DNA from: Oscillospiraceae bacterium
GTDB taxonomy: Bacteria > Bacillota > Clostridia > Oscillospirales > CAG-272
Reading direction: 5' to 3'
DNA: 36,987 nt
NCBI GenBank assembly: GCA_015064065.1
Contig: SVSY01000006.1
Span: 1 to 36,987 of the forward strand
Below the pieces are notes generated by a model. It saw only the letters and a program-made list of their open reading frames with translations, had not been told where the DNA came from and ran no database searches. Below are positions 4,561 through 33,475 of the stretch, piece by piece (the stretch's first letter is position 1; each line of letters opens with the position of its first letter). Made by a program: the position numbers and the translations under genes.

Positions 4561-6159
4561 ATGAAGAACGTCGTTAATATAATAAATTTCATACGCGCTA
4601 TAGAGCCGCGTCCGAACAGAAACATCGATATGCAGTTGCCTATGCGTGAGCAGATAAGGCTGATGAAGGAAAACTGTCTTACGGGAACTTTTTTGCTCCA
4701 ATACGATGCAATGATATCTCCCGACTTTGCAAGCCTTATAGACGAGGCGGCAGAGTTTTGCGAGATCGGCCTGTGGCTTGAGGTCGTACAGCCGCAGGTA
4801 GAGGCTGTCGGTCTTGAGTGGAGAGGAAGATACCCTTGGGATTGGCACAACGACGTCGGATTTCTCATAGGCTACGAGCCGCACGAGCGTAGGTTGCTTA
4901 TCGACGAGGCTATGGAGCGTTTTAAGGAAAGGTTTGGCAGATATCCCGACTCGGTGGGCTCGTGGCATATAGACGCCGTGTCCTTGAAGTATCTCGAGGA
5001 CAAATACGGTATAGTCGCTTCCTGCAACTGTCGTGATCAGGTTGGAACTGACGGATATACTATGCAGGGAGGATACTACAATCAAGCCTACTATCCGAGT
5101 GTGAACAATATGTTCTGTCCCGCATCAACACAGGAGAAGCAGATAAATATACCCGTGTTCAGAATGCTTGGTTCAGACCCGTTTTTAGCCTATGATTACG
5201 GGGTGTTCGATTACGGCTTCAGAAGCGTTCCCTCACTTGAAGCCGTGCATTTGGGCGGAAGAGAGGATTGGGTGGAATGGTTCACAGATACACTCTTCGG
5301 CGAGCCTAACGGACTTTGCTTTCAGTATACTCAGGCGGGGCAGGAGAATAGCTTCGGTTGGCAGAGAATGGGTAAGGGAATCGAATATCAGTTTCCTTAC
5401 ATAGCAAAACTCAAGGCAGAGGGCAAAATAGAGGTAATGACTCTTGGCGAGAGCGGAAGGTGGTTCAGGAAAAATTACAAGACTACGCCTGCCGCTGCCC
5501 TGAGAACTATGAGTGCTTGGAATCGTCCGCATATAAGCTCCGTGTGGTATTACAGCCGATCTTACAGAATCAATATCGTGGTAGACAGCGGTGTGGCAAG
5601 GATACGGGATATGTATCTTTTCGACGACGAATACCCCGAGCACTATCTTTCTAAAAGATGCTCAAGCACCGCCTGCGAGTTCAGAAATCTGCCTATAATG
5701 GACGGTTCGCTCTACTCAAACGCCGAGGATAACGTCGTTGCGGGAATATATTTTTGCGTCGGTGGCAAGAACGTGGTGTGGAAGGATACGAAATACAGTG
5801 AGATCTCAGAGAGGACCGCAGTTTTGACCTTGCACTCCGACGTAGGTGATGCAACTGTCAGCTTCGACGAGTGCGGATTTGAGATATTTACCGACGTAGA
5901 CGGTCTTGCGCTCGTTCCACAATACGATACCGATCGCGTGCTGGGAAGGTCTTTTGAAGAGAATAAATTCACCAACAACAATAACCGACAGTTAGCTCTG
6001 AGCTTCATAGAGGCGGCAGAGGTAAGGGGCAGTCGGATAAACTTCAGGATAAACCGATTTGATTACGGAATAGAGATACTTGAAGGAAAAGTCGATAGGG
6101 ATATGACCGTGTCGGCGGATAACGGCAGAATAAGAGTTGGTATTGCCAAAAAAGAATAA
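4561..6159 (+). CDS. Hypothetical protein, possibly polysaccharide deacetylase/NodB-like or GH57-like TIM barrel
   Basis: 532 aa single ORF with own promoter; deacetylase-like layout (NFIRAIEPRPNRNIDMQLPMREQIRLMKENCLTGTFLLQYDAM...GRYPDSVGSWHIDAVSLKYLEDKYGI). Family not certain. Confidence 0.5.
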   Translation: MKNVVNIINFIRAIEPRPNRNIDMQLPMREQIRLMKENCLTGTFLLQYDAMISPDFASLIDEAAEFCEIGLWLEVVQPQVEAVGLEWRGRYPWDWHNDVGFLIGYEPHERRLLIDEAMERFKERFGRYPDSVGSWHIDAVSLKYLEDKYGIVASCNCRDQVGTDGYTMQGGYYNQAYYPSVNNMFCPASTQEKQINIPVFRMLGSDPFLAYDYGVFDYGFRSVPSLEAVHLGGREDWVEWFTDTLFGEPNGLCFQYTQAGQENSFGWQRMGKGIEYQFPYIAKLKAEGKIEVMTLGESGRWFRKNYKTTPAAALRTMSAWNRPHISSVWYYSRSYRINIVVDSGVARIRDMYLFDDEYPEHYLSKRCSSTACEFRNLPIMDGSLYSNAEDNVVAGIYFCVGGKNVVWKDTKYSEISERTAVLTLHSDVGDATVSFDECGFEIFTDVDGLALVPQYDTDRVLGRSFEENKFTNNNNRQLALSFIEAAEVRGSRINFRINRFDYGIEILEGKVDRDMTVSADNGRIRVGIAKKE

Positions 6160-6161
6160 AT

Positions 6162-6204
6162 AAAGATCCCCGCAAGCCGATTGATACGGTCTGTGGGGAT
6201 CTTT
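6162..6204. terminator. Bidirectional terminator between convergent genes
   Basis: AAAGATCCCC (6162-6171) / GGGGATCTTT (6195-6204), between convergent CDSs ending at 6159 and 6217. Confidence 0.75.
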
Positions 6205-6216
6205 GGTTTTGAAGGC

Positions 6217-7320
6217 TCAAAGCTTTCCGTGCGGAAGTGTGGGATCCATAGGAGCGAGACGCTCGAATTTCGTGGTCATAACGTAGGGAAGACCGCTCTC
6301 GGCGCTCTTCATCGCACCCGTCATTACCTCAAGAACGTGGAGAGTCTGCTTATAAGATGCGCGAGGATCTCTGCCGTTCTCGATCGCCGATGCAAAATCG
6401 GCAAGACCAAGGCAACGGGAGTTTACTGAGTAATCAAATTCAAGCGGGATCTCGAGTGTCTCGTTCTTTGCGCCGTCGAGGTATTTCATACCGCACTCAG
6501 AACCGAAGCAGTTGGGGTCGGGAACGTAAAGATTGCCTTTTGTTCCGTAGAGCTGGATATTTGCCTGATTGGTATTGTAAAGGTCAAAGCTCATAAGCAT
6601 AGAGATCGTGGGACCTGATACGAAATTGAGAAGTATCTCATAGTGAGTCGGCACGTTTACGGTTATGATCTCACCAACGTGAGGTGCGGCTGTTATAAGT
6701 CTTTCGCTAAAGGTCGTGCGTGACTTTGCGTAAACGCTCTCAACTCCGCCAATGAGGTTGATAAGAGCGGTGATATAATAAGGACCCATATCGAGAAGAG
6801 GACCGCCGCCTCGCTGATAATAGAAGTCGGGATCGGGATGCCAGCTCTCCACTCCGCGACCTGCCATAACGCAACGACCGCCGATAACGTCGCCGATAAG
6901 TCCCTCTTCGATCTTCTTGCGGCAGGTCTGAATACCCGCGCCCATAAAGGTGTCGGGAGCGCCGCCTATCCAAAGACCCTTTTCATTTGCGATGCGGACA
7001 AGCTCCACACCTTCCTCCCAATCCGCACCAAGCGGCTTTTCGGAGTATACGTGCTTGCCTGCCTCAAGTGCGGCACGTGATACCTCATAGTGCTGATAGG
7101 GACGTGTGAGATTGAGAACTATGTCGATCTCGGGATCGGCAAAGAGCTCGTGCATTGTGTCGTATATCTTGGGTATTCCGTATTCCTTTTGCGCTTTTTC
7201 TGCGCGTTCACGTATGAGGTCGCATACGGCGACAAGCTCAACGTCGCAAAAAGTTTCCTTGAAATTTTTGAGATAGATGCCGGAAATACAACCGACACCG
7301 ACCATTCCTACCTTCATCAT
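6217..7320 (-). CDS. Gfo/Idh/MocA family oxidoreductase
   Basis: 367 aa; Rossmann MMKVGMVGVGCISGIYLKNF, EKPLG motif (HVYSEKPLGADWEEG), C-terminal Gfo/Idh domain. Start may be 7317. Confidence 0.92.
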   Translation of the reverse strand: MMKVGMVGVGCISGIYLKNFKETFCDVELVAVCDLIRERAEKAQKEYGIPKIYDTMHELFADPEIDIVLNLTRPYQHYEVSRAALEAGKHVYSEKPLGADWEEGVELVRIANEKGLWIGGAPDTFMGAGIQTCRKKIEEGLIGDVIGGRCVMAGRGVESWHPDPDFYYQRGGGPLLDMGPYYITALINLIGGVESVYAKSRTTFSERLITAAPHVGEIITVNVPTHYEILLNFVSGPTISMLMSFDLYNTNQANIQLYGTKGNLYVPDPNCFGSECGMKYLDGAKNETLEIPLEFDYSVNSRCLGLADFASAIENGRDPRASYKQTLHVLEVMTGAMKSAESGLPYVMTTKFERLAPMDPTLPHGKL

Positions 7321-8103: not shown

Positions 8104-9420
8104 TTATCCAAACAGAATTCTGTTTACTATACTCTCAAGATACTCTTGTCTGCCGCTATCGGGAGTTTTGCAACTGCCGAGCTCCTCTGCGTGCGCGGCA
8201 AGCTCGGACAGTGTTGCAGTGCCGCTTCGTATTTTTTGACCGAGCTCGCCCTTGAAGCTTTCATACCTTTTTTCAACAAACTCATCAAGCTCGCCGTCTT
8301 CGATCAGCTCTGCGGCTTTGATGAGACCGAGAGCGAAGGTGTCCATTCCGAGAATATATGCGTGGAACATATCCTCGGGGGTGTTACTCGGTCTGCGGTT
8401 CTTTGCATCGAAATTAAATCCGCCCGTAAGACCGCCTGCCTTGAGCACCTCGTACATACACAGTGTGCTCTCGTAAACGTTGTAGGGGAATTCATCGGTA
8501 TCCCAGCCGAGCAGATAGTCTCCCTGATTTGCATCTATTGAGCCGAGCATTCCGTTGATAGCCGAGATGCGAAGCTCATGTCGGAAGGTGTGACCCGCGA
8601 GAGTTGCGTGGTTTGCCTCAATGTTCATTTTGAAATCCTTGTCAAGCCCATACTGACGCAAAAATCCGATAGCCGTTGCTGCATCGAAATCGTACTGATG
8701 CTTCATAGGCTCCTTTGGCTTTGGTTCGATATAAAAGTCGCCCGTAAAGCCAATACTTCTGCCGTATTCGACTGCCATTTTCATAAGCGCGGCGATGTTT
8801 TCCTGCTCAAATCTTACGTCTGTATTGAGCAGAGTTTCGTATCCCTCGCGTCCGCCCCAAAAAACGTAGCCCTTGCCGCCGAGCTTGACCGTAAGCTCGA
8901 TAGCCTTTTTTATCTGTGCCGCCGCAAAGCAGTATACGTCGACCGAATTTGTACTTCCCGCACCGTTCATAAAGCGGGGATTTGAGAACATATTTGCCGT
9001 TCCCCAAAGACACTTGATGCCCGTTTCCTCCATCTTTTTTAGCAGATAGTCTGTTATTTCATCGAGGCGGCGGTTTGTTTCGTTTATATCCTCAGCCTCC
9101 GGAACTATATCGACGTCGTGAAAGCAAAAATACTTAATGCCGAGCTTCTGCATAAATTCAAAACCCGCATCTACCTTTGCCTTTGCGTGCTCCATAGTAC
9201 CCTTTTGTGCGCCAAAGCTCTTATCGGCAGTATCTCTTCCGAACATATCCGTACCTGCCGCGCAAAGATTGTGCCACCAAGCCATAGCGAAGGGAAGGTG
9301 ATCACTCATTTTCTTGCCGAGTATGATCCTGTCAGCGTCGTAATATCTGAACGCAAGAGGGTTTTTAGAGGCTTTGCCTTCGTATTTTATTTTTGGTATG
9401 TCAGCAAAATATTCTTTCAT
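8104..9420 (-). CDS. xylA: Xylose isomerase
   Basis: 438 aa; canonical XylA motifs ([70 protein letters not shown]). Confidence 0.97.
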
Positions 9421-9448
9421 TAGCTTATCTCCTTTTAGTTTATGAGTT

Positions 9449-10927
9449 TTACTTTATGTCTTTATAGAGCTTTTTGAGCGCAGGATATATTTTTCTGTAT
9501 CTTTCGTATCTTTCGTTGTAGAGAGATACGAGCTCGGGATCGGGGCGGATCACTTCATTGACCTTGAAAAGCTTTTCGGCAAGCTCCACAACGCTCTCGC
9601 TCTCTCCCGCACCTACCATGGCTAAGATCGCAGAGCCATATCCCGGACCCTGCTCGGTGAGCGGCAGATGAAGCTCTAAGTTGAGAACGTTTGCGATTAT
9701 TTTGCACCAAAGCTTTGATCTTGTACCGCCTCCGCAGATACAGCTGCTCTTGATATCAATGCCGAAATTTCTTATTATTTCAAGATTGTCGCGAAAAGCA
9801 AAGGCGACACCCTCAAGAACGGCTTGATAAACGTCGGCACGTGAGCTGCTGCCGCGGAGTCCCACAAAAGTGCCGGTTGCATCAGTGTCGTTGATAGGAC
9901 TGCGCTCTCCCATAATGTAAGGTAGGAAGAATACGTCGTTTTTACCTAAAGCACGATCTTTTACAGAGCGCTCCTCCGCGTCGTAATCCGATGTAGTGAG
10001 TATATCGTTGCACAACCACTTGTTGCAGTATGCGGCGGACATTACCACGCCCATAAGATGATAGCCCCCGTCGGCGTGGCAGAATGAGTGTATCGCTTGG
10101 CGATAGTCGCCAAAAAAGCTTTTGCACGGAACGAATATAGTTCCCGACGTACCGACCGAGATGTTACAGCGACCCTCGCCCACAGTTCCCGTGCCGAGTG
10201 CCGCGGCGGCATTATCACCCGCTCCGGCTACGACTATGGCATCCTTGCTTATGCCGAATTTTTTTGCGAGCTCGCCTTTTATCTTTCCGACGACATCAAA
10301 GCTTTCGTAGAGTCGAGGCATTTGTTCTTCGTTGACTCCGCAAATATCAAGCATCTCGGCTGACCAGCGTTTGTTTTTTACGTCGAGCATCAAAAATCCC
10401 GATGCGTCCGAGAGATCGGTGCAGTGAACTCCTGTGAGAATATAGTTTATATAGTCTTTCGGGAGCATTATTTTGCTTATTTTTGCAAAGCTCTCGGGCT
10501 CGTTTTTTCGCATCCACATAAGCTTGGGAGCGGTAAATCCCGCAAAGGCGATATTTCCGGTATATTCGAACAGCTTTTCCTTGCCGAGTGTGAAATTAAG
10601 ATAATCTGTTTCTTTGTCTGCTCTGCCGTCATTCCAGAGTATCGCGGGGCGAATAACTCTGTCGTTTTTATCAAGCACGACAAGTCCGTGCATCTGACCC
10701 GCAATGCCGATGCCTGCGACTGCCTGACCGTCGTATCCGCTAAGAAGCTCGAAAAGTGCATCGCTTATCGCATTCCACCAATCCTTAGGATCCTGTTCGC
10801 TCCAATTTACGTGCGGATAAGAGACGGGGTAGTCGCGCGACACCACTCTTTTTATCTGACCGTCAGCATCGACGAGCATAAGCTTGACGGCGGACGTACC
10901 GAGGTCTATTCCTATATAATACTTCAT
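9449..10927 (-). CDS. xylB: Xylulokinase
   Basis: FGGY kinase: [53 protein letters not shown] at 10927 chosen over the track's 10948 start because AGGAGGA lies upstream of it. Confidence 0.95.
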
Positions 10928-10995
10928 TTTTCCTCCTATTGAGATCAAGAGTAGAGATTTGAAGCTTCACCTAAGACAATTATAGCACATAGTAG

Positions 10996-11825: not shown

Positions 11826-13070
11826 TTATAAATATATTTCGGGTATCGGGTGCTTTTGTGCGAGCAACAAGACCTCTTTGCGCGCATTCTCTATAACGCT
11901 CTCGTCGTCAGGTGACTTTACCAGTTCGAGCCAGATATCAGCTATCGCCTCAAGATCCTCGCGATCAAAGCCTCGCTGTGTCAGAACTGTCGTTCCTGCG
12001 CGCAGACCTCGCGGCACGGGCGAGTCGTCAAAGGGAATAGCTTTGGTGTTGACGGTTATGCCTACGCGCTCGAAAAGGTCGGCTATCTTCTCGCAATCGG
12101 CGTCGAACGGGCGCAGATCGGCTACGAACATATGGCAATCGGTGCCGCCCGTGACGATATCAAATCCGCGCGCCTTGAGTGCCTTGCAGAAATACTGCGC
12201 GTTCTCGACCACCTTTTTCATCAGCGCCTTGAACTGTGGTGTTTGCGAATTGTACAGAGAGTATGCCATCGAGGCTATAGTTTGCAGATGCAGAGATGCG
12301 ACGTTTTTGGGATATACGCTCTTGTCTACCGCGTCGCGAAGGCTCTCGCGGCACATAATAAATCCGCTGTGCGCGCCGCACATAGTCTTTGTTGTCGAGG
12401 CGGTCACGATATCGGCATAGGGAATTGGGTTTGGCGATATTCCCGCCGCGATAAGACCCGTGAAATGCGCTATATCTGCCATAAGCAGCGCGCCGTTTGT
12501 GTGCGCGATATCGGCAAGGCGAGCGTAATCTATGTTTCTCGAATAGGAGGCAGAGCCAACGACTATGAGCTTCGGGCGAAATTCGCGCGCCTTGCGCTCG
12601 GCTTCTGCGTAATCGATAAGAAGCGTGTCGCGCTCAAGCCCGAAATAATCAAAGCTATACATTTTAGACGCTATGTTTGCCGCCGCGCCGTGTGTCTGGT
12701 GCGCTCCCGCGTTGGGCGCGAGGGCGAGGACTCTGTCGCCGAGATCAAGCAGAGCGCTGTAAGCGCAGTAGTTTGCCACAGACCCCGAATATGTCAGCAT
12801 ATTCGCGTGATCCGCACCGAATATCTCGCAGGCGCGCTTCGCGGCGAGCCTTTCGAGCTTTGAGGCATACTCCGAGCCTTTAAGGCGTTGCTTGTAGGGA
12901 AGTCCGACGGCGGTCTTGTTGTTAAAAATGCTTCCTGCGAAGGCTCTTGCGGCACTCGGCTGAATGCTTTCCGAGGCTATCATTTCAAGACCGTTCTCCT
13001 GACGCTCGCGTTCAAGCAAAAGACAACCGTAAAGCTCGGCGTCACACGCCATTATATCGTATTCGTTCAT
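11826..13070 (-). CDS. Divergent serine hydroxymethyltransferase-family (GlyA-like) PLP enzyme
   Basis: About 414 aa from ATG 13070 (AAGGAGTG upstream). SHMT fold motifs: QENGLEMIASES, FGADHANMLTYSGSVAN, THGAAANIASKMY, MADIAHFTGLIAAGISPNPIPYADIVTASTTKTMCG, GLRAGTTVLTQRGF. Several canonical active-site residues differ (see findings). Confidence 0.85.
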   Translation of the reverse strand: MNEYDIMACDAELYGCLLLERERQENGLEMIASESIQPSAARAFAGSIFNNKTAVGLPYKQRLKGSEYASKLERLAAKRACEIFGADHANMLTYSGSVANYCAYSALLDLGDRVLALAPNAGAHQTHGAAANIASKMYSFDYFGLERDTLLIDYAEAERKAREFRPKLIVVGSASYSRNIDYARLADIAHTNGALLMADIAHFTGLIAAGISPNPIPYADIVTASTTKTMCGAHSGFIMCRESLRDAVDKSVYPKNVASLHLQTIASMAYSLYNSQTPQFKALMKKVVENAQYFCKALKARGFDIVTGGTDCHMFVADLRPFDADCEKIADLFERVGITVNTKAIPFDDSPVPRGLRAGTTVLTQRGFDREDLEAIADIWLELVKSPDDESVIENARKEVLLLAQKHPIPEIYL

Positions 13071-13115
13071 TTGCACACTCCTTAGTTCTTTGTTTTACCT
13101 AAATGTTTATATCTA

Positions 13116-15210: not shown

Positions 15211-15750
15211 ATGGATATCTCGGCATTTATAATAGGACTTTTAGCGGTTGCCTGCTTTTTGCTGTCCTATCAGCAGAAGAGGCGGAAGGGAATAATACTT
15301 CTCAACGCGACCTCGCGCGCGCTGTACATAATTCAGTATATACTGCTCGGCGCGTTTGACGGAGCGGCGCTTGATATCGCGGGTATCGTCGCATCTCTGC
15401 TCGCAGAGAAAAAGGACGCACCCATTATCAAGAAGCATCTCAAGCTCTTTATTATAGGTATAGACGCGATAATAGTCGCGTCGGGACTTGTATTTTATCA
15501 GAACGTGTTCAGTCTTTTCCCGATCATAGGCGTGCTCTTGCATACGTCTGCGTTCTGGCTTGAGAAGGAAAAGCATATCCGACTCGTGTCTTTGCTCGGC
15601 TCGCCCTTCTGGTTGGTATTCAATATCACCAGCGGAGCGTACGGCTCGGCAATAGGCGACACGCTGTCGATAGTTTCTATACTCGTGGCTATTTTCAGAT
15701 ACGATATATTAAAACAAACCCAAAAAGAAAAGGAGATCTCAGATGAATAA
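15211..15750 (+). CDS. YgjV-family inner membrane protein (paralogue 2)
   Basis: 179 aa, hydrophobic, similar topology and size to 1307..1840 (FLLSYQQKRRKGIILLNATSRALYIIQYILLGAFDGAALDIAGIVASLLAEKK). Confidence 0.75.
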   Translation: MDISAFIIGLLAVACFLLSYQQKRRKGIILLNATSRALYIIQYILLGAFDGAALDIAGIVASLLAEKKDAPIIKKHLKLFIIGIDAIIVASGLVFYQNVFSLFPIIGVLLHTSAFWLEKEKHIRLVSLLGSPFWLVFNITSGAYGSAIGDTLSIVSILVAIFRYDILKQTQKEKEISDE

Positions 15751-30183: not shown

Positions 30184-30209
30184 GTGTTATAATGTAAAGG
30201 GTGATAGTT

Positions 30210-30722
30210 ATGGAAGAATTTGCAAAGAGAAAAACGCCAAGATTACAAGGTTTTGATTATAATAGCACCGGAGCATACTTTATAACAATTTGCACGCAAA
30301 ACAGACGGTGTATTCTCTCCCATATTGTAGGGACAGGCGTCCCCGACTGTCCGCAAATTGAATTAACAAGATACGGTGAGATCGCAGATAAATATATCAA
30401 ACAGTTAAATTCTTTTTATGATCACATATCTATCGAAAGTTATGTTATAATGCCAAATCATATTCACATTTTATTGTTTATTAAGCAGAGCGGACAGTCG
30501 AGGACGCCTGTCCCTACAAATGCAGATAGAGCAAATAGTGCTTTTTCGCAATTTATATCCACATTTAAGCGGTTTTGTAACAAAGAATATGGAAAAAATA
30601 TCTGGCAGACTCGTGTAAATGATCACATTATTCGCGGTAGAGAAGATTATGAGGAGCATTTGAGATATATTTACGAAAATCCCAAACGATGGCTTTATGA
30701 TGAGTTATATACCGAAGAGTAG
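30210..30722 (+). CDS. REP-associated tyrosine transposase (RAYT; Y1_Tnp / IS200-like HUH family)
   Basis: RLQGFDYNSTGAYFITICTQNRR, HUH motif MPNHIHILLF (30459-30467 HIH), C-terminal VNDHIIRGREDYEEHLRYIYENPKRW typical of RAYTs; ATG 30210. Confidence 0.92.
   Translation: MEEFAKRKTPRLQGFDYNSTGAYFITICTQNRRCILSHIVGTGVPDCPQIELTRYGEIADKYIKQLNSFYDHISIESYVIMPNHIHILLFIKQSGQSRTPVPTNADRANSAFSQFISTFKRFCNKEYGKNIWQTRVNDHIIRGREDYEEHLRYIYENPKRWLYDELYTEE
30326..30354 (+). repeat. REP-like element, arm 1, inside the RAYT CDS
   Basis: TGTAGGGACAGGCGTCCCCGACTGTCCGC: GTAG head followed by GGACAG...CTGTCC hairpin; inverted partner at 30490-30518. Confidence 0.8.
30490..30518 (-). repeat. REP-like element, arm 2 (inverted), inside the RAYT CDS
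   Basis: GCGGACAGTCGAGGACGCCTGTCCCTACA, reverse complement of arm 1 with 1 mismatch in 29. Confidence 0.8.
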
Positions 30723-30798: not shown

Positions 30799-31533
30799 TC
30801 AAAGTCTTCCAAGATATTTCATCAGCGGAACGGGGTCGTTTGCGGTGATGAGTGAAGCGCCGCGCTCGATGCAGAGCTTGACGTCTTCTTCGGTATCCGC
30901 ACAGAACATATGCGCAGGCATACCCTTTTTCATATAGAACTCGCAAAGCTCGGACTTAACGAAGGTCATAGACAGACCGATCTCCTCGTAGTAATCGTAC
31001 GTATCAGGTTCGAATTCTCCCATCTGAATGTCGGGATATCCCATCGTGCGACCGTTGTACTTTTCCTTGATGTATTTGATGATCCTACCGTTGAAGGCGT
31101 AGAACCAGCAACGGTCAAATACACCGTATTTCTTGAGAAGAGCAACCGTGAGGTCAACGTTCTCCTCGGTGTATTCCTTTATCTCAACGCCAAAAAGGAT
31201 ATCGGGGCGAAGAGAGAGAGCAAGCTCAAGCGTCTCTTCGAGCGTAGGAACGGTAACGCCCTGACCCTTGTATGTGTCGCCAAATTTTGCACTGTAGCAC
31301 GCGTCAAGCTCTTTGACCTCGGCGAGCGTCATATCGCGCACGTGCTTGTCGACTCCGCAGGTGCGGAGCGCGTTGCCGTCGTGCATAATTACGGGAACTT
31401 TATCTGACGTGAGCCAAACGTCAAACTCGAATGCGTCAACGCCGAGCTCAAGCGCTGCTTTGAACGAGATAAGTGTATTTTCGGGATACTTTGCACAGTA
31501 TCCGCGATGTCCTTCAACTATAATATTTTTCAT
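30799..31533 (-). CDS. Glycerophosphodiester phosphodiesterase
   Basis: VEGHRGYCAKYPENTLISFKAALELGVDAFEFDVWLTSDKVPVIMHD; GDPD family. Confidence 0.95.
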   Translation of the reverse strand: MKNIIVEGHRGYCAKYPENTLISFKAALELGVDAFEFDVWLTSDKVPVIMHDGNALRTCGVDKHVRDMTLAEVKELDACYSAKFGDTYKGQGVTVPTLEETLELALSLRPDILFGVEIKEYTEENVDLTVALLKKYGVFDRCWFYAFNGRIIKYIKEKYNGRTMGYPDIQMGEFEPDTYDYYEEIGLSMTFVKSELCEFYMKKGMPAHMFCADTEEDVKLCIERGASLITANDPVPLMKYLGRL

Positions 31534-31679
31534 TGGAAATACCCCCCAAAAAAGAATTTATTTCATTATATCACATACAACAGATAGAGTCAAGCAATTT
31601 TTGTCTGCGCGATCAAATTTTTGCTGTAGTATCTTTTTGAAAAAAACAGGACAAATGTTGCTTATTTCGCCCTGTATTC

Positions 31680-31708
31680 TTGACATATTGGTCAAAAAAT
31701 GGCATAAT
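31680..31708 (+). promoter_or_regulatory. Promoter of the secreted phosphoesterase gene
   Basis: TTGACA (31680-31685), 17 bp, CATAAT (31703-31708), GGAGGG RBS before ATG 31745. Confidence 0.7.
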
Positions 31709-31744
31709 AGGTACAACAACGTATTAAATTTTTGGAGGGATCTT

Positions 31745-33475
31745 ATGAAAAAGAATTTTAAAAAGATAATTTCTATGATCTGCGTTGCATCGACTCTGCT
31801 CGTTGTCGGGGCGGCGGTAGTTCCCGCGTCGGCAGCTGAGCCCAAATGCTATCCCGCAAAAGCGTGGTACGAGCTTGACGTGGATAACGACGGATTTGCA
31901 TCGGGCATTCTTACCGTAAAGTCAAACGGTTGGTGGGACAGCTCGACCTATCCGATAGATGCCGTAGCTTATTGGGCAAACGAGGACGGCTTGCTTGAGG
32001 GATATTCCTCGCTTGCAAGATTTTCTCTCACTACTATATCCTCAAGCTACAGATTTCCCGCACTTCAGATAATTCCCGAGGGTGCAGATAGAATTCGCGT
32101 ATATACCGCAAGCAAGAACGACAGCACTCTCTCGACGCAGTATGCCGAGGCTATGCTTCCTTCCAATGCGGATTTCGTAATAAACGAAGAGCCTAAGCAC
32201 ACCTTTGCAGTTGTCAGCGATACGCACGTCGTCAACGACGATAATCACGAATGGACGAAAAAGTTTAAGAATATGCTCAAGGACGTCAGCGAAAATATTG
32301 GTGTTGAGGGTGTGTTCATCAACGGAGATATGGTCAATACGGCGAGCGGTGCGGCTACAACACCCGACAAGGCAAGTGGAGAATACGCTAAGCTTCAGTC
32401 GATTAAGGGCGAGGTCTGCCCCGATATGCCTATCTATATGGCAATAGGTAATCACGATCTTTGGCCCGTAGGATTTAATGACACTTCGCTTCAGACTATG
32501 GAGCAGATGTTCTGTCAGAATGCTATGCTTCCCGACGGAAGCCGTCCGTCCTCTTTCTTCTATGATTTCTGGATAGACAATAACCATTTCGTATTCGTAG
32601 GTGACAGCGGACGTGATCCCAATTACATATGGTTGAATGATAATGCGCTCAATTGGCTCGATACTACTATAGCTTCGGGTTATGGCGAGGGAAAGAACAC
32701 CTTTATCTTTATGCATCAGGCTATGCCTAATACCGTTTCGGGCTCGCTTACCGATCTTGCGCAGGGCGATGCAACAGTTGACAACGCTTACGAGATACGT
32801 CAGGTGCTCAAAAAATATCCCGACGCGATGATGTTCAGTAGCCACAGCCACTATGAGCTTGACTCTGTCGGCAACGCATATAATGCAGATGCTAAGTATC
32901 CTACGGTATTCAACACCTCGTCGGTAGCAAACCCCTACAGCGCAAGAAAGGGTGCTATTACGGGTGGAAGCGAAGGATATATTATGGAGATATACGACGA
33001 TTTCATTCTGCTCAAGGGAAGAGACTTTACTAACGGTCTTTGGAAAGCTTCTTCGCAGTACGTAGTGATGCTTGCTGACGAGAATACCAACGATAGCGAG
33101 AACAACGATACGAACAACGATACGAACAACGATACGAACAACGATACAAACAATAACACAAACAATAACACAAACGATAACACAAACAACAACACAAACA
33201 ACGATACAAACAACAACACGAACAATAACACAAACAACAACACAAACAACGATACAAACAATAACACCAACAATAACACCAACGATAACACAAACAACAA
33301 GGACGATAACAAGCCGACCGAAAAGGTTACGGAAAAGCCTACCGAAGCGGCTACGAATAACACCGCTACCGAGCCGATAGTGAATGTCGGTTGCGGCTCT
33401 GTGATCGGATCTGTGGGCGCAGCACTTGCTTCGCTTGTCGGTGCTGTTTGCGTACTTAAAAAGAAAAAGGACTGA
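31745..33475 (+). CDS. Secreted calcineurin-like metallophosphoesterase with Asn/Thr-rich stalk and C-terminal membrane anchor
   Basis: Signal peptide MKKNFKKIISMICVASTLLVVGAAVVPASAA; FAVVSDTHVV, VFINGDMVN, YMAIGNHDLWP, FSSHSHYELDS; C-term NVGCGSVIGSVGAALASLVGAVCVLKKKKD. Track start 31313 is antisense to GDPD and upstream of the promoter. Confidence 0.9.
   Translation: MKKNFKKIISMICVASTLLVVGAAVVPASAAEPKCYPAKAWYELDVDNDGFASGILTVKSNGWWDSSTYPIDAVAYWANEDGLLEGYSSLARFSLTTISSSYRFPALQIIPEGADRIRVYTASKNDSTLSTQYAEAMLPSNADFVINEEPKHTFAVVSDTHVVNDDNHEWTKKFKNMLKDVSENIGVEGVFINGDMVNTASGAATTPDKASGEYAKLQSIKGEVCPDMPIYMAIGNHDLWPVGFNDTSLQTMEQMFCQNAMLPDGSRPSSFFYDFWIDNNHFVFVGDSGRDPNYIWLNDNALNWLDTTIASGYGEGKNTFIFMHQAMPNTVSGSLTDLAQGDATVDNAYEIRQVLKKYPDAMMFSSHSHYELDSVGNAYNADAKYPTVFNTSSVANPYSARKGAITGGSEGYIMEIYDDFILLKGRDFTNGLWKASSQYVVMLADENTNDSENNDTNNDTNNDTNNDTNNNTNNNTNDNTNNNTNNDTNNNTNNNTNNNTNNDTNNNTNNNTNDNTNNKDDNKPTEKVTEKPTEAATNNTATEPIVNVGCGSVIGSVGAALASLVGAVCVLKKKKD
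33101..33292 (+). repeat. 12-bp tandem repeat, 16 units (NNDT/NNNT/NDNT)
   Basis: Consecutive AACAACGATACG-type units encoding (N-N/D-D/N-T)x16. Confidence 0.93.

Follow-up and report, generated by a model that had tools for sequence, protein, structure and literature searches.

The gene at 11826..13070 (minus strand) raises the question of whether a protein that carries the label glyA in databases can act as an SHMT. It lies in the window, namely, the whole stretch of 36,987 nucleotides from an Oscillospiraceae bacterium analyzed here. The reading frame is intact and encodes 414 aa, with the ATG at 13070-13068 and a Shine-Dalgarno-like AAGGAG 5′ of it (13078..13083, minus strand). The protein belongs to the SHMT superfamily (PF00464, fold type I) in its family model, its fold and its Lys/Asp/Arg residues: it scored 339 bits against PF00464 (cut-off 27) and 382 bits against NCBIfam PRK00011 (cut-off 335), and when its AlphaFold2 model (pLDDT 93) was used for a Foldseek search, only SHMTs were found among the matches listed (top TM 0.95). 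The glyA label arises since the curated SHMT cut-off is passed, despite the loss of the folate site described below. The same genome also has a second, canonical glyA (G000:C15:40858-41985; 573 bits versus 339 for the gene in question, hereafter the paralogue), located among housekeeping genes such as threonyl-tRNA synthetase-like and asparaginyl-tRNA synthetase-like genes (named by eye). No Rfam family, riboswitches included, was found across the window at the gathering thresholds.

The active-site residues were compared in the numbering of E. coli GlyA, the sequence used for which agrees with the B. stearothermophilus SHMT chain and with 34 fetched GlyA-like sequences. Some residues are retained: Ser35, His126, Asp200, His203, Lys229 and Arg363 are invariant in all eight distinct members of the subfamily formed by the paralogue and its closest relatives. 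In the paralogue's own numbering, the PLP lysine is K228, the aspartate is D199, the substrate-carboxylate arginine is R357 (12000..12002, minus strand), and the PLP-stacking histidine, H124, lies within 12696..12716 (minus strand). Judging from these residues, the PLP chemistry and the carboxylate clamp appear to be intact in the clade. Other residues are changed, namely, Y55T, E57V, Y64R, Y65L, H96Y, H228T and R235H; Thr226 is also a Ser in the clade. Since the alignment is nearly free of gaps in these regions, the residues are replaced and not shifted, and since the substitutions are fixed in 8/8 members, they are not the product of chance or sequencing error. The preliminary description had reported the loss of Tyr55, Glu57 and Tyr64/65 and the change of His228 to Thr, among others, together with the retention of the Schiff-base lysine and of the PLP and carboxylate features; both parts agree with the alignment.

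The replaced residues can be assigned to particular loops. The loop NKTAVGLPYKQRLKGS (residues 50-66; 12873..12923, minus strand) has T53, V55, R62 and L63, identical in the eight members, at the positions of E. coli Tyr55, Glu57, Tyr64 and Tyr65, all of which are contributed to the active site of the partner subunit. In the PLP-lysine loop TASTTKTMCGAHSGF (residues 223-237; 12360..12404, minus strand), K228 is kept, while T227, C231 and H234 stand for His228, Ala232 and Arg235, again in 8/8. The partner-subunit phosphate loop VASLHLQT (residues 257-264; 12279..12302, minus strand) has S259, H261 and Q263 for Gly263, Leu265 and His267.

The E. coli folate site is composed of Leu121, Gly125, Leu127 and Asn347, with Glu57 and Tyr64 from the other subunit, and the partner-subunit share of the PLP site is composed of Tyr55, Glu57, Tyr65 and Gly263 (PMC7916883). 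When the alignment was read against this list, P119, A123 and Q125 (12696..12716, minus strand) were found to replace Leu121, Gly125 and Leu127, and K343 (12042..12044, minus strand) to replace Asn347. Across the members, the six folate positions (in the order Leu121, Gly125, Leu127, Asn347, Glu57, Tyr64) read P, A/S, Q/A, K, V and R, and the four partner-subunit positions read T, V, L and S; none of the original residues is kept in any of the eight. Therefore, folate binding should be lost. The paralogue and canonical GlyA (EC 2.1.2.1) are thus alike in fold, PLP lysine and carboxylate clamp, but the partner-subunit and folate residues are all replaced in the former. Furthermore, in seven of the eight carrier genomes, the paralogue coexists with a canonical GlyA (~510-580 bits versus ~335 for the paralogue), the eighth genome being 66% complete. 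On these two grounds, THF-dependent serine/glycine exchange is very unlikely for the paralogue, as the preliminary description had proposed.

A protein search and a scan for the motif TKTMCG-H yielded the members. The eight distinct ones (the paralogue, L033, L034, L035, L036, L037, L039 and L060) are all from Clostridia MAGs, and the five whose records carry names are from gut MAGs of sheep, goat, yak and water buffalo. The motif was matched in 2 of 394 genomes at the level of the order, in 1 of 391 at that of the class and in 5 of 395 at that of the family, with the own genome counted; the genome samples overlap, so that the counts are lower bounds for a strict motif. The identity to canonical GlyA is 36-40%. 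For the closest pair of members, pS was 0.42, pN was 0.02 and dN/dS was 0.035; the protein is therefore under strong constraint (purifying selection). A 944-aa frame in L036, considered as a possible fusion, turned out to overlap a MATE gene in antiparallel orientation. The paralogue is thus a real, constrained and rare relative of SHMT, which should not carry the SHMT annotation; no description of an SHMT paralogue of this kind was found in the open literature searched.

The preliminary description, although correct about the losses, missed that the clade's T55, T228, S263 and H265 are together the combination found in the alpha-methylserine hydroxymethyltransferase (MSHMT) type (EC 2.1.2.7); Y55T and H228T thus seem to be more than mere losses. 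The specificity residue of MSHMT, Thr60, corresponds to SHMT position 55 and is paired with His70 at position 65 (PMC6411801), and an SHMT with Tyr55 changed to Thr accepts D-Ala and D-Ser as donors (PMC6411801; also PMC4761611, PMC6546723). The plasmid "glyA" genes of Paracoccus aminophilus and Ensifer encode exactly T60 and H70 by number, as well as T228, S263 and H265. The MSHMT-type gene is accompanied by folD and purU in Ensifer and Pseudomonas, and in Pseudomonas by a D-serine ammonia-lyase gene too. From the signature and the gene context, we infer that these plasmid genes of Paracoccus, Ensifer and Pseudomonas encode MSHMT. The paralogue shares Thr55 (its T53) with MSHMT in 8/8 members but has Leu in place of His70 in 8/8; moreover, the MSHMT-type proteins (L063 and L078-L080) retain Glu57 and the folate site (with Tyr64 as Phe), whereas the paralogue clade has V57 and R64 and lacks that site. 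The same Tyr55Thr change is found in the engineered S. thermophilus SHMT variants Y55T/Y55S (PDB 6tgh, 6ti4), which were among the Foldseek matches; unlike the paralogue, these carry a single change and are otherwise canonical.

Closer relatives were found among clostridia. In a tree of 55 proteins, the eight members form one clade (support 100/100), and its sister group consists of three clostridial T55 SHMTs (L069 of Acetoanaerobium noterae, G701 and G666), with a joint support of 100/99 that was still 96 after removal of 29 trait columns. The two groups have in common S37, F51, T55, Y96, S226, T228, C232, S263, H265 and mostly S236; however, the sisters retain Glu57, F64, Leu121, Gly125, Leu127, Asn347 and Arg235. 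The folate site was thus lost later, on the paralogue branch, after the T55-type residues were gained. When the Paracoccus MSHMT-type protein was forced into the clade of the paralogue and the T55 sisters, the tree was worse by 35 log-likelihood units (p-AU 0.003). A common origin with the Proteobacterial MSHMT type is thus rejected, and T55, T228, S263 and H265 therefore arose at least twice. That the paralogue arose by a recent duplication of the host glyA is also rejected: the clade lies outside all GlyA of Clostridia and Proteobacteria (support 100). Within the clade, the branching departs from the genome genus, the window protein being grouped with members of other genera and not with those of the same genus (G015 and G021), a pattern suggestive of horizontal transfer. 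The GlyA of G030 (L052; G030:C42:8326-9453) is unusually divergent, with an end branch of 1.72, and is grouped with E. coli and Actinomycetota; it may come from a contaminating contig in the MAG.

Several further observations concern T55-type and other SHMT genes. A phylum-wide scan of 389 genomes for the T55/E57 motif gave no match. In two clostridial genomes, a T55-type SHMT gene with Glu57 kept is followed by a gene of the tryptophanase/tyrosine phenol-lyase family (L076:12209-15141 and L077:1771-4571), and in Acetoanaerobium (L075), the T55 gene comes after a leuACDB-like cluster. On a plasmid of Pseudomonas juntendi (L079:3001-7269), the MSHMT-type gene, annotated as glyA, forms a single row with the D-serine ammonia-lyase gene, folD and purU, an arrangement resembling the catabolism of alpha-hydroxymethylserine or alpha-methylserine with one-carbon oxidation. 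The plasmid glyA of Aminobacter was considered as an MSHMT gene and discarded: its sequence is canonical, and it adjoins a PEP carboxylase gene. On the Pseudonocardia plasmid pFRP1-1, the gene of an SHMT that has T55, T263 and a Tyr at 228 (L070:160-1605) overlaps a non-ribosomal peptide synthetase gene at the start of the latter and is a candidate for unusual amino acid synthesis. A highly divergent SHMT (N55, C64, V65, A263) on a Rhizobium leguminosarum plasmid (L065:292-1548) lies directly 3′ of a PGM1-related peptide ligase gene.

What, then, might the paralogue do? The preliminary description suggested an aldolase, transaldolase or racemase-like role. Because T55, T228, S263 and H265 recur in the MSHMT type and in the clostridial sisters, the aldolase/transaldolase suggestion can be narrowed to an alpha-substituted donor. 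We put at close to even chances the reading that the paralogue descends from the clostridial Thr55 SHMT lineage and is an aldolase or transaldolase that needs PLP but no folate and acts on such a donor. In the mechanism envisaged, Lys228 would carry PLP, and Ser33, His202 and Arg357, pointed out by their conservation, would hold an alpha-amino acid by its carboxylate. With Thr53 in place of Tyr55, a methyl or hydroxymethyl substituent would fit next to the alpha carbon, as in MSHMT and the engineered Y55T SHMT; given this room, the carbanion partner would probably resemble D-Ala or D-Ser, and an alpha,alpha-disubstituted beta-hydroxy-amino acid would be formed or consumed. The old folate pocket would now be less acidic and more cationic (E57V, Y64R, N347K, H235), so that the aldehyde would enter or leave free and may bear a phosphate or carboxylate. 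A THF-independent precedent is provided by alpha-methylserine aldolase of Variovorax/Ralstonia, which uses D-Ala as the donor (PMC7918591); the paralogue would match it in its THF independence and D-Ala-type donor. The cleavage that defines this aldolase yields alanine and formaldehyde without THF.

The main objection to the aldolase/transaldolase reading is the loss of Glu57. It has been argued that this residue (Glu53/57) acts as the general base whether or not the cleavage depends on THF, and that the active-site histidines cannot do so (PMC10397204). With Val at this position, either another group acts as the base or the reaction is not an aldol cleavage; speculatively, His261, His234 or the substrate's own anion might take this role. 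Also against the reading are the Leu at the His70 position, the formate-THF ligase gene near L034/L035, and neighborhoods that name no substrate. A more specific version, in which the enzyme couples a D-Ala/D-Ser-type carbanion with an anionic, sugar-phosphate-like aldehyde by means of a base other than Glu57, and so makes or breaks alpha-quaternary amino acids in herbivore-gut Clostridia by a reaction so far undescribed, seems rather unlikely.

With the retro-aldol residues gone (Glu57, Tyr64 and Tyr65 are all lost), the kept Lys/Asp/Arg machinery, with K228, H124 and R357 intact, might serve a non-aldol PLP enzyme on D- or L-amino acids, such as a racemase, half-transaminase or eliminase. 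SHMT, threonine aldolase and fungal alanine racemase have common active-site residues and racemase/transaminase side activities (PMC6411801, a review), which fits this idea; however, the T55 sisters and the convergent MSHMT type retain the aldol residues and differ mainly in the donor pocket, and the racemase and transaminase family models all score far from their cut-offs on the paralogue. We give this reading a minor, though appreciable, chance. A protein that binds PLP but catalyzes nothing, and serves in regulation or as a structural component, might be imagined from the replacement of most partner-subunit catalytic contributions and from a gene that is often solitary, in carbohydrate-utilization surroundings with AraC or DeoR regulators near. 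Nevertheless, the PLP and substrate-carboxylate residues are invariant, T53, R62, L63, C231, H234 and H261 are fixed without drift, and purifying selection is strong; such a role is rather improbable.

The two remaining readings keep the paralogue within known SHMT-like activities. THF-independent SHMT relatives with threonine transaldolase activity exist (ObiH, LipK, FTase), using Thr as a glycyl donor and an aldehyde as an acceptor, and an FTase-like protein (L067) also carries S263 and H265. The known ones, however, retain Tyr55 (ObiH features: PMC8072733, PMC10495429), where the clade has Thr in 8/8, and have loop motifs of their own; against the FTase model TIGR04506, the paralogue scored 102 bits (cut-off 650). 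Membership in this group is thus rejected on Tyr55, and only a slim chance is left for the activity. That the paralogue has kept THF-dependent SHMT or MSHMT activity despite its unusual residues is scarcely credible: the PRK00011 score above the cut-off and the formate-THF ligase near L034/L035 speak for it, but the complete replacement of the folate site and the canonical GlyA of the carrier genomes speak against it. If the folate-free aldolase/transaldolase reading is true, the paralogue would be a natural counterpart of the engineered donor-pocket change Y55T, reached at least twice and here uncoupled from folate. It would offer a testable case of an SHMT turning into a folate-free C-C bond enzyme and might be of use as a biocatalyst for alpha-quaternary amino acids; it also calls for caution in annotating such paralogues as SHMT.

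As for the surroundings, the gene was said to sit alone among sugar genes, and indeed a GH32 gene lies divergently upstream and an AraC regulator gene convergently downstream. The flanks vary from member to member, and no conserved neighborhood that names a substrate was found among them: xylose-isomerase-like and GH36 genes in L039, a phosphodiesterase-like gene overlapping upstream in L060, ThrE and AraC in L033, fhs, VanZ and MatE in L034 (fhs in L035 too), and MatE and GH2 in L036. In the L034/L035 pair, the formate-THF ligase gene is ~1 kb from the paralogue. The carbohydrate genes (GH32, GH36, GH2, xylose-isomerase-like) fit, though weakly, with a partner that is an aldehyde or comes from a sugar, but such genes are common in these genomes.

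Other features were seen around the members. In L060 (3277-5353), it is a type I phosphodiesterase-like gene (PF01663) that overlaps the paralogue start, and L033 has a second PF01663 gene ~4 kb upstream; the ThrE of L033 is a threonine/serine exporter-like two-gene pair (5576-6816) close to the paralogue. In the window, 8104-10948 (minus strand) holds what appears from the translations, by eye, to be a same-strand sugar-use operon (xylose isomerase-like, xylulokinase-like, Gfo/Idh-like oxidoreductase and ThuA-like genes). A lone REP-associated transposase-like ORF is located at 30201-30722 (plus strand), with a similar ORF near the paralogue at L036:3587-4273 (by eye). The gene at 31313-33475 (plus strand) encodes a metallophosphoesterase-like secreted protein, probably a surface protein, in which a long tract of Asn/Thr/Asp repeats and a hydrophobic segment at the C-terminal end are seen. 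Finally, two small membrane proteins alike in length and look (YgjV-like by eye) are encoded at 1307-1840 and 15211-15750 (both plus strand).
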